Shown: piece by piece, positions 1 through 3,795 of the stretch | Layout: every line of letters begins with the position of its first letter | Numbering within the stretch: position 1 is the first letter of the stretch | Assembly (NCBI GenBank): GCA_949298805.1 | Contig: CASFXY010000007.1 | Coordinates: forward strand, 1-64,000 | Length of the DNA stretch: 64,000 bases | Origin: an uncultured bacterium | Lineage (GTDB): Bacteria > Cyanobacteriota > Vampirovibrionia > Gastranaerophilales > Gastranaerophilaceae | Direction: 5' to 3' | The notes under the pieces: generated by a model | Database searches by the model: none | The model's input: only the letters and a program-made list of their open reading frames with translations | Told to the model about the DNA's origin: nothing | Translations under genes and position numbers: made by a program

Positions 1-92
1 TGCTCATCACAGCCGTCACGGGCTTCACATCCTTGAAGTTTCGCTCGTCCTCAAGTTGCGCAGTCGCGCTAACTTTCGGACTTCGCTCATGC
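1..92. other. GC-rich left-edge segment, possible dispersed repeat
   Basis: By direct count the first 90 bases are about 54% GC (49 of 90), against roughly one third in the rest of the window. One frame on each strand is open through this stretch to the left edge, which is common in GC-rich palindromic-like repeats and does not show coding. The minus frame would begin near a TTG just after a leftward terminator. It may be a dispersed intergenic repeat or the start of a gene lying outside the window. I cannot decide which. Confidence 0.35.
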
Positions 93-124
93 AAAAAAAA
101 ATGTTTGTCGAACGACAAACATTT
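93..124 (-). terminator. Intrinsic terminator, leftward
   Basis: A perfect 12-bp stem (99-110 with 113-124) closes on a two-base AA spacer. On the minus strand it is followed by a run of T residues (93-100 on the plus strand are all A). yidC already has its own terminator at 302-322, so this one implies a second short leftward transcript from about 125-300. Confidence 0.7.
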
Positions 125-301
125 AAAACACGAGGATATTAAGAGAGAGTAATAAATGTATTTTTTTTAGCAAGACACATCAGCATAAAAGCGCTTCTGG
201 CTTGATTTTTCTTCCTTTTAATTAAATCCCTTACTCTTTAATAAAGTAATTAAGATTTCGAAAATTGCCTATAGCAAAAAAAATATTAAGAAATATTAAA
301 A

Positions 302-322
302 AGCCTGTCATAAAGACAGGCT
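302..322 (-). terminator. Intrinsic terminator of yidC
   Basis: An 8-bp stem AGCCTGTC/GACAGGCT with a five-base loop lies 20 bases downstream of the yidC stop. On the minus strand it is followed by a T-rich tract. Confidence 0.85.
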
Positions 323-340
323 GATAAAAAATATAAAAAG

Positions 341-1426
341 TTATTTAACTTCTTTTGGCTCTATTTTTTTAGCATTTTCTATATCAGCATTTGAAGAAGT
401 CTTTTTAACCTCATCCTCTTTATCGAGCTGCTTATTAATAATAACTGTTTGGACAATTTGAAAAACGTTGCTTGTCACAAGATATAAAAGCACACCCGCG
501 GGAATTGGAATAAAAATAAACGTTAAACCAATCATAAGAGGCATAACGGTACCCATAGACTTTTGAATTGCTTGCTGGGTCGGGTCTTGCTGCACGCCTT
601 TTTGTGTTGACATCATAACCTTTTGTGACACCCACATTGTAAGAGCAAAAAGTAAAACAAGGAATATAACATCATAGTGAACTTCACTTTGTACATCAGC
701 GACAGGGACATTTGCAGCAAGCACGTTATCAACAGGCAAAAAAGTAACCTTTTCGGTTTCTTTTGTTTGATTGTCAATAACATTTACTTCAACTTTTGTA
801 ATTTCCTTAAGTTCTGCAAAAGAAAGTTTCAAACTGTCAGGGTACATTTTAAGGTCAAAATTTTGCTTTGGTTTAATCTCGCCTTGCACTGTAATAGCTT
901 TGGTCGGGCGGTCAACCTTAACATTCTCAAGAACCCTCTCACCGATATAAACTGTAGCTGTTTTACCTGCCGTAAATGTATCATAAGGCCCCACAACAAA
1001 TTTACCGTCAAAAGACTGACCGGCAGTGCTTTTAATTGTGGCATCAAGTCGATTTATAAACAAAAACTTTGCATTTCCGGCTTGTTGTATAAATTGAGGG
1101 CTCATTAATGCCGTGTAAAGCAATATAAACACCGGCAATTGAAGCAAAAGAGGCAAACAACCTGCCATGGGATTAAACTTATTTTCTTTGTAAAATTCCA
1201 TCATTTTCTGCTGCATCATTTGAGGGTTACTTTTATAACGCTCTTGAATTGCTTTCATTTTTGGCTGCAGCAACTGCATATTACGCATAGAACGCTGCTG
1301 ACTAATGCTTGAAGGCCACATACAAGCTCTAACTATGATTGTCAAAAGTATGATTGCAAGTCCCCAATTACCTGCAAATTTAGCCAGTGTCTGTAATATT
1401 GAAAGGGTAAATCCTACAAAATCCAT
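341..1426 (-). CDS. yidC: YidC/Oxa1/Alb3 membrane protein insertase with a large insert
   Basis: This protein inserts and folds inner-membrane proteins, alone or with SecYEG. TM1 (about residues 20-38) carries the conserved Arg33. A charged cytoplasmic hairpin follows (45-85), then TM2 (88-107), TM3 (251-268) and the TM4/TM5 region (291-330), with a charged C-terminal tail. There is no E. coli-type N-terminal periplasmic P1 domain. Instead, about 120 residues (130-248) sit between TM2 and TM3, on the extracytoplasmic side, and look beta-rich. A good ribosome site (AGGAG, about 6 bases ahead) supports the start. The gene is divergent from mnmE, whereas many bacteria have yidC and mnmE in one rpmH-rnpA-yidC-mnmE string. 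The family call is certain; the insert's role is unknown. Confidence 0.95.
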   Translation of the reverse strand: MDFVGFTLSILQTLAKFAGNWGLAIILLTIIVRACMWPSSISQQRSMRNMQLLQPKMKAIQERYKSNPQMMQQKMMEFYKENKFNPMAGCLPLLLQLPVFILLYTALMSPQFIQQAGNAKFLFINRLDATIKSTAGQSFDGKFVVGPYDTFTAGKTATVYIGERVLENVKVDRPTKAITVQGEIKPKQNFDLKMYPDSLKLSFAELKEITKVEVNVIDNQTKETEKVTFLPVDNVLAANVPVADVQSEVHYDVIFLVLLFALTMWVSQKVMMSTQKGVQQDPTQQAIQKSMGTVMPLMIGLTFIFIPIPAGVLLYLVTSNVFQIVQTVIINKQLDKEDEVKKTSSNADIENAKKIEPKEVK

Positions 1427-1502
1427 ATTCTCTCCTATGTTGTCATGCCAAAATGGCGATTATCAATTTTAATTTTACCTTAAACATGATATTATTCACA
1501 TT

Positions 1503-2831
1503 ATGAAATATTCATTTGATACAATTTGTGCAATTGCTACACCTATTAGCACAGGAGGTATAGGCGTAATAAGGATTAGTGGCGAAAATGCAATTGAAAT
1601 TGCACAAAAAATATTTAGCAAAAAAATTACACCAAAAGTTATTAATCATGGTTGGATTATAAAAGACAATAAAAGGATTGATGAAGTAATAATCCTGCCG
1701 TTTGTTGCGCCCAAAAGTTACACAGGAGAAGATGTTGCAGAAATTCAAACACACGGCTCACCTGTTGTCATTAATAAAATTTTAAATCTGGTTCTTGAAA
1801 ACGGCGCAAGACTTGCGCAAAAAGGCGAGTTCACAAAAAGAGCCTTTTTAAATCACAAAATAGATCTTTCTCAGGCAGAGGCAGTTTTGGACTTGATTAA
1901 TGCAAAAACGGTAAAATCTGCCCAAGGCGCAGCAAACAACTTATCAGGTGTTCTTAAAACAAAAATAGAAGAAATAAAAACCGAAATTACGGACATTTTA
2001 GGAAAAATTACCGCTTCGCTTGATTTTCCGGAAGATGTAGCAGAGATTAGTTATGATGAAATAATACAAAAAATTAAAAAATCGATAAAAAATATTGAGG
2101 AAATATTACAAAATGCCAGAATGCATAATATTTTAAGACAAGGAATAAAAGTTGCTGTAGCAGGACGCCCAAATGTCGGTAAATCATCTCTTTTTAACGC
2201 GCTATTAAACCTTGACAGGGCAATTGTAACTGATATTGAAGGCACAACACGTGACACAATAACAGAAACTGTTGATATAAACGGAATAAGCGCAACATTA
2301 ATAGATACTGCAGGCATCAGAGAAAAAAGTGCCGATAGAGTGGAAAAAATAGGAATAGAACAATCACGCCTTGCAATTGAAAATGCCGATATTGTTCTTT
2401 GCCTGTACGACGGGCAAATGGGACTAAATGAAAATGACTTGGAAATTTTCAACCTTGCTAAAAACAAAAAGCGACTAATTGTGCGCACAAAATGTGATTT
2501 ATGCAAAAACTCCAAAAATGATAACGAAATTTCAATAAGTTCCGTAACAAAAGAAGGCATACATCAGCTTAAAGATACACTATACAAGGAAGTGGCGGGT
2601 TTAAATCCAACCGAAAATGAATTTTTAACAAATCAAAGGCACCAAAATTGCCTTAAGTTATGTTTAAATGCATTGAAAAATGCTCTTAATGGCGCGCAAC
2701 AAAATGAATTACAAGATTTAATCAGTATTGACTTAAAATCTGCTCTCATAAATCTGGGCGAAATCAGCGGAGAAATCATCACAGACGACATTTTGGACAG
2801 TATTTTTGAAAATTTTTGCATAGGAAAATAA
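1503..2831 (+). CDS. mnmE: tRNA modification GTPase MnmE
   Basis: MnmE works with MnmG to install the carboxymethylaminomethyl-type group on U34 of tRNAs, using a folate one-carbon unit and GTP. The N-terminal folate-binding domain spans about residues 1-120. The G domain is embedded in a helical domain: P-loop GRPNVGKSS (221-229), GTTRDT (247-252), DTAG (268-271), and TKCD (329-332) in place of the usual NKxD. The protein ends in the family's C-terminal motif CIGK, whose Cys is catalytically important. I see no Shine-Dalgarno sequence. A TATTAT box ends 7 bases before the ATG, so the mRNA may be leaderless. Its 442 residues are close to family length. Confidence 0.97.
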   Translation: MKYSFDTICAIATPISTGGIGVIRISGENAIEIAQKIFSKKITPKVINHGWIIKDNKRIDEVIILPFVAPKSYTGEDVAEIQTHGSPVVINKILNLVLENGARLAQKGEFTKRAFLNHKIDLSQAEAVLDLINAKTVKSAQGAANNLSGVLKTKIEEIKTEITDILGKITASLDFPEDVAEISYDEIIQKIKKSIKNIEEILQNARMHNILRQGIKVAVAGRPNVGKSSLFNALLNLDRAIVTDIEGTTRDTITETVDINGISATLIDTAGIREKSADRVEKIGIEQSRLAIENADIVLCLYDGQMGLNENDLEIFNLAKNKKRLIVRTKCDLCKNSKNDNEISISSVTKEGIHQLKDTLYKEVAGLNPTENEFLTNQRHQNCLKLCLNALKNALNGAQQNELQDLISIDLKSALINLGEISGEIITDDILDSIFENFCIGK

Positions 2832-2832
2832 T

Positions 2833-3579
2833 TTACAAATCGAATGATTTCATAAATTTTTTTATTTTATTACCTATATTTTTTACAAGTTCCTTACCTT
2901 CTTTTGTCTTTCGAACTTTATCTGCCCAATTATCCATATTAAAATAAGAAATATCTATAAATAAAGTATTTTCCATATCAAATTTGGCATCTTTTAAATA
3001 TTGCGAGTGATTTATTACAATAAAAGCAAATTTTTTATCGCCTCTTTTTTTCTTTAGCGCATCATATAAATTTTCAATATCTTCTTTTGTATATTTTGCA
3101 ACATAGCTTGTCGAATACACAGCAAGTAAAAATTTATTATCATTTATATAATCATAAAAATTTTCAATTCTTTTTTTATAAATTTCTATAAAAACATCTC
3201 TTTCCAGTCTGGCATCGTGGTTGTACAAGGCATTTATTGAAGGATTTACCCAGCAATTTTCCTTAGTATTAAATTCGATATCATCAAAATAATTTTCAAA
3301 ACCATTATTTATAAGGTTAATTTCCGCATTTATATCCGAATGATAAGCTAAATCAAAAACACTTGATTTTTCTCCGTAAATCTTTCTGGGCTTAATTTTT
3401 GCATAAGTTGTCACAACTCTGGGAAAGCATATAGAACCTAGCGATAAAACCCTGTACTTGCATTTTTTAAATCTGAAATAATCAATGATACTATAGTTTT
3501 GAATAAAATCTCTTATATATTTTCTTTTTGCCGTATTAAATATAAACGCAGAAACAATTATTGATAATAACTTCCTCAA
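2833..3579 (-). CDS. DUF1796-like putative papain-like cysteine peptidase
   Basis: This 248-residue protein resembles the DUF1796 family, which is predicted to be papain-like cysteine peptidases. It has the 'LSLGSIC' segment with its candidate nucleophile Cys (about residue 52), then a 'SSVFDLAYH' segment matching the family's PFDW-like region, and a 'NALYNHD' block. Such genes often sit near polysaccharide or cell-surface genes, but the substrate is unknown. The start is a TTG preceded by GGGGG on the minus strand; no early Met exists. The first residues are mildly hydrophobic. The gene converges on mnmE with a one-base gap. Function is inferred from motif resemblance only. Confidence 0.6.
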   Translation of the reverse strand: MRKLLSIIVSAFIFNTAKRKYIRDFIQNYSIIDYFRFKKCKYRVLSLGSICFPRVVTTYAKIKPRKIYGEKSSVFDLAYHSDINAEINLINNGFENYFDDIEFNTKENCWVNPSINALYNHDARLERDVFIEIYKKRIENFYDYINDNKFLLAVYSTSYVAKYTKEDIENLYDALKKKRGDKKFAFIVINHSQYLKDAKFDMENTLFIDISYFNMDNWADKVRKTKEGKELVKNIGNKIKKFMKSFDL

Positions 3580-3599
3580 GATGCCCCCAAATGTAAAGA

Positions 3600-3757
3600 A
3601 ATGTAAAATAATAAGATAAATATGTTACAAATAATTTTATCAGAGGAATAGTAAAATTGTAAAGATAATATGACAAAATAAGTTTCAAAAAGTTTTCTCT
3701 CTAATTCCTCTCTCTAATATGTGGTAAATTTACTGGCTCTTTGGGTCAGTTTTTTTT
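3600..3757 (+). ncRNA. Candidate small RNA with CU-rich tracts and terminator
   Basis: The 216-base gap between two genes contains no ORF but ends in a good rightward intrinsic terminator (3732-3757). The DUF1796-like gene to the left runs leftward and panD starts only at 3796, so no annotated gene uses this terminator. Just before it lies a tandem direct repeat of TCTCTCTAAT (3696-3705 and 3709-3718). Such CU-rich single-stranded tracts can pair with Shine-Dalgarno sequences. The 5' end is not determined. A panD leader attenuator is the alternative. Confidence 0.4.
3732..3757 (+). terminator. Intrinsic terminator upstream of panD
   Basis: Stem ACTGGCT/GGTCAGT-like (3732-3738 with 3744-3750, including two G-U pairs) with a five-base loop, followed by eight T residues (3750-3757). 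It lies 38 bases before the panD start, so it ends either an upstream small RNA or an attenuated panD leader. Confidence 0.75.
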
Positions 3758-3795
3758 ATGCTGGATTTTTATTTTTTTGATAAAATAAATACGCT

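Follow-up and report, generated by a model that had tools for sequence, protein, structure and literature searches.

Two candidate small-RNA gene families with a common CU-rich motif in Gastranaerophilales

Introduction

Does a short CU-rich motif that precedes two intergenic terminators in one genome mark genes for regulatory RNAs, or are the two sites alike by chance? The question was raised by a stretch of 64,000 nucleotides (nt) from an uncultured bacterium of the family Gastranaerophilaceae, within Candidatus Gastranaerophilales of the Melainabacteria (assembly GCA_949298805.1, contig CASFXY010000007.1, positions 1 to 64,000; hereafter, the window), in which a first-pass annotation had noted two such sites and had proposed an RNA family with a shared seed. 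The sites are here called element A (plus strand) and element B (minus strand). Judging from sequence comparisons, they appear to be two genes for small RNAs, strongly conserved among gut bacteria that are relatives of the cyanobacteria, and by analogy with known RNAs, they probably regulate other genes through pairing with their messages. Regulatory RNAs of Melainabacteria seem to be little studied: among the matches listed in the literature on Melainabacteria and Gastranaerophilales, no small or regulatory RNA was named in titles or abstract openings.

The motif and its genomic context

At element A, positions 3709-3720 (+) read TCTCTCTAATAT and are followed by a terminator-like hairpin and T-run at 3732-3750 (+); at element B, positions 150-136 (-) read ACTCTCTCTTAATAT, again with a terminator-like hairpin and T-run behind them, at 124-99 (-). 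The flanks of the two sites are unrelated, as the annotation had stated; the sites themselves are highly conserved across related genomes.

The bare string is not what sets these sites apart. When CTCTCTNAATAT, whose spacing is that of site B and does not fit site A, was searched in the window with at most one mismatch, 2 matches were found against 1.22 expected, and 42 of 100 shuffles contained at least 2; the count is thus not above chance. Across the bacterium's own genome, CTCTCTN{0,2}AATA gave 14 matches (8 for the reversed pattern), which represent 13 distinct sites, site A being matched twice. Only A and B, where the stop-free frames are 27 and 49 amino acids long, have a hairpin and T-run within 80 nt downstream; the remaining 11 sites lie in long open frames (125-824 amino acids) and have no such hairpin downstream. 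It is context and conservation, not the motif count, that put A and B beyond chance. That two ordinary terminators merely happen to look alike is hardly credible: the motif count, no higher than in shuffled sequence, would accord with it, but conservation across genera, and for A also across families, does not, and judged by that conservation, the idea that the elements are non-functional is refuted.

Two grounds for giving up its reading had been named in the annotation: an equal frequency of the motif in coding or random AT-rich sequence, and a lack of further copies. Most copies of the bare string (11 of 13 sites) do lie in long open frames, but A and B alone precede a terminator. The own assembly does hold just one copy each of A and B and, being 94.8% complete, could lack a further copy of the motif or of either element; homologues elsewhere are numerous, as out of 286 genomes of the order, 87 gave a match to A and 257 a match to B.

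Element A

Element A is a putative small RNA of about 100 nt (~3657-3757, +; start estimated from the promoter), and covariance model R1 locates it in the window at 3691-3757 with 80.5 bits. Its core, TTCTCTCTAATTCCTCTCTCTAATATGTGGTA (3695-3726, +), comprises 32 nt with two CU tracts and contains the motif twice, as TTCTCTCTAAT and TCCTCTCTCTAATAT; both the second occurrence and the start of the conserved core at 3695 correct the annotation. In the 34 aligned homologues, the core is nearly letter-perfect while the surrounding sequence changes. These represent 34 of 40 loci, as near-duplicates or loci on a split contig (L005, L009, L010, L011, L021, and L029) were omitted. The core is followed by the terminator hairpin and T-run (3732-3757, +), whose stem covaries: 94.8% of cells are paired and 16 cells are changed on both sides, a result reached by 0 of 500 shuffles, as was also true of the covariation score. 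The number of further pair types was not unusual (reached by 50 of 500 shuffles). In the aligned parts of both A and B, the terminator stem was the sole structure predicted. The predicted unpaired fraction was 0.72 in the core of A, compared with 0.52 in the rest (n = 71, with the start estimated from the promoter).

A minimal frame within the core (ATG-TGG-stop) was considered and rejected, as the ATG is missing in L019, L036, and L040-L042, the frame is reduced to ATG-stop in L030-L032, and it differs in L037-L038. In loci from several families outside the window's family (L023, L024, L027, L028, L030, L031, L034, and L036-L039), element A has an additional 5' block, conserved and rich in C and U, that reads (G)AGCAATCTTCCTTCAATCC or nearly so.

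A BLAST search with window positions 3580-3795 gave a match in 46 of 58 genomes, the own genome included. By a count of the listed ranges, the match spans the core in 39 genomes, from families f1, f2, f3, f4, f6, and f7, and touches other parts of the query in the remaining 7. Of the 87 genomes of the order in which model R1 found element A, 69 belong to the window's family and 18 lie outside it; this takes 264 of the 286 genomes, going by their order of listing, to be members of that family and the remaining 22 not. When 292 genomes were sampled from the whole phylum, the number outside the order not being given, 25 matches were obtained, all inside the same order. Weak copies could have been missed in the large searches with R1 and with model R2 of element B, which used stricter filters, and R1 scores drop where the cores have diverged, as in genera g45 and g46. 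When named genomes were scanned for exact copies of the core, 61 DNA stretches were returned, mostly from Candidatus Gastranaerophilales; the other names were Galligastranaerophilus, Adamsella, Melainabacteria, "Cyanobacteria bacterium," plain uncultured bacteria, and one Clostridia. The contig with this last label (L098, uncultured Clostridia) probably comes from a mislabelled or contaminated bin.

One genome, G161, has three weak A-like copies (~40 bits; L144:242-305, -; L145:288-351, -; L146:306-359, +) that share the same 110-nt upstream sequence and lack a good terminator, as would be seen if the A-like core were part of a repeated element.

A promoter of the SigB/SigF type

Upstream of the A homologues, GTTATA, GTTTAA, or a similar sequence is usually followed after 13-14 nt by GGGAAT or similar. 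In the window, these are GTTACA (3624-3629) and AGGAAT (3644-3649), separated by 14 nt (3624-3649, +). The arrangement is of the GTTTAA-N13/14-GGGWAT type of the SigB/SigF regulon and resembles published consensus sequences: PMC9847131 gives GTTTAA-N15(+/-2)-GGGTAT for SigB, with cases including GTTTAT-N14-GGGAAT and -AGGAAT, and PMC2758279 gives a SigB-type RGGXTTRA-N14-GGGTAT and places Synechocystis SigF near SigB, the mapped core promoter of that SigF itself being TAGGC/GGTAA. A loose promoter score, reached by 76 of 77 real upstreams and by a mean of 59 in shuffles, did not tell the two apart; a strict pattern was therefore used instead. This pattern, GTTWHD-N13/14-DGGWA, which was drawn up after inspection of the alignment, occurs in 72 of 77 distinct A upstreams, which are related rather than independent, compared with a mean of 0.77 and a maximum of 4 in 500 shuffling runs.

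The SigBFG model matches the own genome nine times; the highest-scoring match (195 bits, under the curated cut-off) is a 272-amino-acid protein whose top NCBIfam match is likewise SigBFG. Scores of the sigma factor homologue were higher in 26 relatives with A than in 17 without it (p = 4.6e-6), and this was also found within the window's family (8 versus 12 genomes; p = 0.005) and with seven absent or fragmentary cases set aside (25 versus 11 genomes; p = 7.9e-5). The comparison omitted the 14 A-bearing genomes of the window's genus, as well as G012 (A not found, 75% complete), and has an exception in G018 (75% complete), which carries A and has no sigma homologue. Transcription of A from a SigB/SigF-type promoter is strongly indicated, and the genome probably encodes a SigF-like sigma factor.

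Element B

Element B is a putative small RNA of about 140 nt (~234-93, -; start estimated), located by model R2 at 157-94 with 76 bits. The 23-nt core CTCTCTCTTAATATCCTCGTGTT (127-149, -) is exact in 33 of 36 fetched loci; the other three, all from genome G032, have one T fewer and thus read CUCUCUCUAAUAU, as in A. The stem of the terminator (hairpin and T-run, 93-124, -) covaries as well, with 98.2% of cells paired and 28 cells changed on both sides (reached by 0 of 500 shuffles, as was the covariation score). Further pair types (reached by 303 of 500 shuffles) and two-sided pairs (61 of 500) were not unusual.

Upstream lies a conserved block (228-270, -), which may be the promoter, the 5' end, or both. 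It is conserved in 25 aligned upstreams and contains AGGCAATTTT (270-261), ACTTTAT (247-241), and GTAAGGG (234-228), all on the minus strand. The general order, AGGCAATTTT ... ACTTTATATAA ... GTAAGGG, differs from the promoter of A, and no SigB/SigF-type pattern was seen in the 25 aligned upstreams. A direct-repeat box was found in 0 of 29 upstreams with a pattern whose spacing was badly chosen, and the GGCAATT-like box present in 29 of 29 is there by construction of the filter. The two alignments of B contain 29 (A3; L048, L049, L051, L055, and L063-L065 omitted) and 25 (A4) of the 36 loci.

When window positions 88-295 (-) were compared by BLAST with the 58 genomes, 36 gave a match. Every listed match of R2 among the 257 positive genomes of the order falls in the window's family; B was not found in 7 genomes of this family, nor in the 22 outside it as listed. 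Element B is thus apparently restricted to the window's family. Some genomes have several copies, with 7 matches in G259 and 4 each in G205, G032, G176, and G281, and in G280, two copies lie in tandem about 270 bp apart (L158:474-540 and 742-808, +). The sequence beyond the terminator of B in the window (1-92) is GC-richer, and in several loci of the genus, B is followed by words similar to GCGAGCGCAGCTCGAAAGCTA; this sequence is possibly a repeat.

Changing neighbours

Both elements are intergenic, and the genes near them include mnmE, panD, yidC, and the gene for the acetolactate synthase small subunit. In genomes of the window's genus, panD follows A at a distance of about 40 nt and yidC precedes B, which would suit cis-acting elements, with A as an attenuator in the panD leader and B as the 3' end of yidC. 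Outside this genus, however, the neighbours of both mostly differ: those of A are common to the whole genus and elsewhere form shared groups of at most 5 loci, and those of B vary between genera, with seven loci having one common upstream gene family (23 named loci inspected, 22 of which gave a row). In addition, yidC has its own terminator (322-302, -), and A has its own promoter. In view of the changing neighbours, A as a panD leader and B as a yidC 3' end were rejected, and cis action of this kind is very improbable. What is found instead is what trans-acting small RNAs (sRNAs) are recognized by: stand-alone intergenic units with their own promoter and an intrinsic terminator. The promoter in question is that of A, as that of B is of no assigned sigma class.

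How A and B are related

In the window, each model has the other element as its second-best match: element B for R1 (18 bits, E = 0.042) and element A for R2 (23.5 bits, E = 0.007). The annotation's RNA genes with a common motif are supported, with many homologues, near-invariant cores, and covarying terminators, but as two families rather than one; the motif is indeed shared, while its role as a seed is something we infer. L114 combines an A core with an upstream block of the B type, ACTTTATATAATTGTAAGG, as though the elements had swapped promoters.

Between them, the two RNAs were detected in 276 of the 286 sampled genomes of the order: 257 have B, G121 has A alone, and a further 18, outside the family, have A. 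So wide an occurrence points to a basic function. One possible history is that A is the older, order-wide gene, while B would have arisen or been recruited at the base of the window's family, with a seed related to that of A, and A would have been lost later in many genera. The resemblance between A and B could also be convergent rather than inherited.

Possible targets and mechanism

As a whole, these features are best explained by two independent genes for trans-acting sRNAs that use a shared seed against ribosome-binding regions, a reading to which we give a probability of roughly 60%. Each gene would have a promoter of its own, then a variable 5' part and the near-invariant core rich in C and U, and an intrinsic terminator at its end. 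The motif common to both, CUCUCUCU(U)AAUAU, would serve as a seed for pairing with the purine-rich ribosome-binding regions of several mRNAs, whose translation would thereby be lowered. Element A may be under a stress-type sigma factor, and B, with an overlapping seed, under other control. Base pairing is the likeliest mechanism by analogy rather than by demonstration, and transcription and targets are likewise proposed.

A seed directed at purine-rich ribosome-binding sites would be expected to be CU-rich, as the core is, and the hexamers enriched before the starts analysed are AGGAGA, AAAGGA, TAGGAG, AAGGAG, and GGAGAA. Target predictions were made on 428 predicted starts, roughly called, from 62 sequences that are mostly stretches of at most 8 kb around A. 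In favour of such pairing, the core of A set start regions apart from coding sequence better than 40 shuffled cores did (-1.73 versus -0.65 +/- 0.34 kcal/mol), a weak preference for start regions. Among the 12 best A duplexes listed, 8 have almost the same upstream sequence and were therefore counted as a single case; two proteins of this group (L098, L104) look, by sequence, like membrane pyrophosphatase.

Several results weigh against this explanation. For the core of B, the same contrast was less clear, at -1.59 kcal/mol against -1.03 +/- 0.37 kcal/mol in shuffled cores, or about 1.5 standard deviations beyond them. Duplexes of -14 kcal/mol or stronger at starts numbered 58 for A, fewer than the mean of 70 for shuffled cores, and 59 for B, where 52 for shuffled cores puts it inside the shuffled range. 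Core-complementary k-mers near starts showed no consistent excess for either element: compared with the reversed control, A had 14 versus 8 9-mers, 21 versus 27 8-mers, and 0 versus 5 10-mers, and B was equal to or under the control. Reverse complements of the cores with at most 3 mismatches, searched in 12 genomes each, returned essentially only the elements themselves, apart from 2 further places with the A core and 1 with the B core (2 and 2 for reversed-pattern controls). The core of B is not special in being predicted unpaired (0.55, versus 0.51 for the rest; n = 31). As for the sigma factor, the 195 bits of the 272-amino-acid protein lie under the curated SigBFG cut-off of 234.35, the tests of its association with A treat relatives as if they were independent, and a good sigma homologue is present in G052 and G032, where A was not found.

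The missing target enrichment in the k-mer and duplex tests would fit real RNAs that serve as protein sponges, on which a conserved RNA-binding protein would be held by the CU tracts, of which A has two and B one, much as CsrB-type RNAs sequester CsrA. The very long near-invariant cores and the repeated tracts in A would fit this as well. Each RNA has just one or two tracts, however, and conservation reaches past them, into AAUAUGUGGUA in A and AAUAUCCUCGUGUU in B, which makes a sponge function unlikely in our view.

Comparison with known systems

No Rfam 15 family matched the window at gathering score, and with E-values up to 10, the regions around both elements gave sub-threshold matches only, the best being snoR22 in the region of A (20.7 bits, gathering score 50) and MicF at B (22.8 bits, gathering score 79). 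In our view, A and B are two RNA gene families that are new in themselves but belong to a known kind. In the Cuckoo-type sRNAs of alphaproteobacteria, a pyrimidine-rich CCUCCUCCC motif in hairpin loops could mask ribosome-binding sites; A and B differ from these in motif sequence and phylum and, it seems, also in the position of the motif. Element A resembles the SigB-dependent sRNAs of Firmicutes in its SigB-type promoter, going by the consensus given in PMC9847131 and with sigma dependence of A itself presumed, but has no sequence relation to them at Rfam threshold.

The best functional parallel, by analogy, is Yfr1 together with Yfr10. PMC2190773 and PMC6778093 describe Yfr1 as a small RNA of cyanobacteria in which an ultraconserved pyrimidine-rich ACUCCUCACAC precedes a Rho-independent terminator, and Yfr1 and Yfr10 as two RNA families with one common motif and overlapping but distinct targets. 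Element A is not Yfr1 itself: the Yfr1 model (RF01116) found no match in 58 genomes of relatives, the own genome included, while a control in Synechococcus elongatus was positive. The Yfr1 motif, which in Yfr1 is kept unpaired with a stem-loop on either side, is in neither aligned core, and in the aligned parts, no two-stem-loop layout was predicted, only the terminator stem. A and B also differ from Yfr1 and Yfr10 in core sequence and length and in that no conserved 5' hairpin was seen in the aligned part. Within what these two papers describe, they are alike in the pyrimidine-rich conserved motif before a terminator and in the occurrence of two families with one motif, here in a sister lineage. 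We tentatively suggest that a stress-sigma-driven, order-wide A and a family-level, near-universal B may form a two-gene sRNA system that directs one pyrimidine seed at many ribosome-binding sites, as an independent counterpart of Yfr1 and Yfr10. If so, it could be asked whether the sister lineage of the cyanobacteria, which is non-photosynthetic, independently evolved a pair of RNAs with a common seed.

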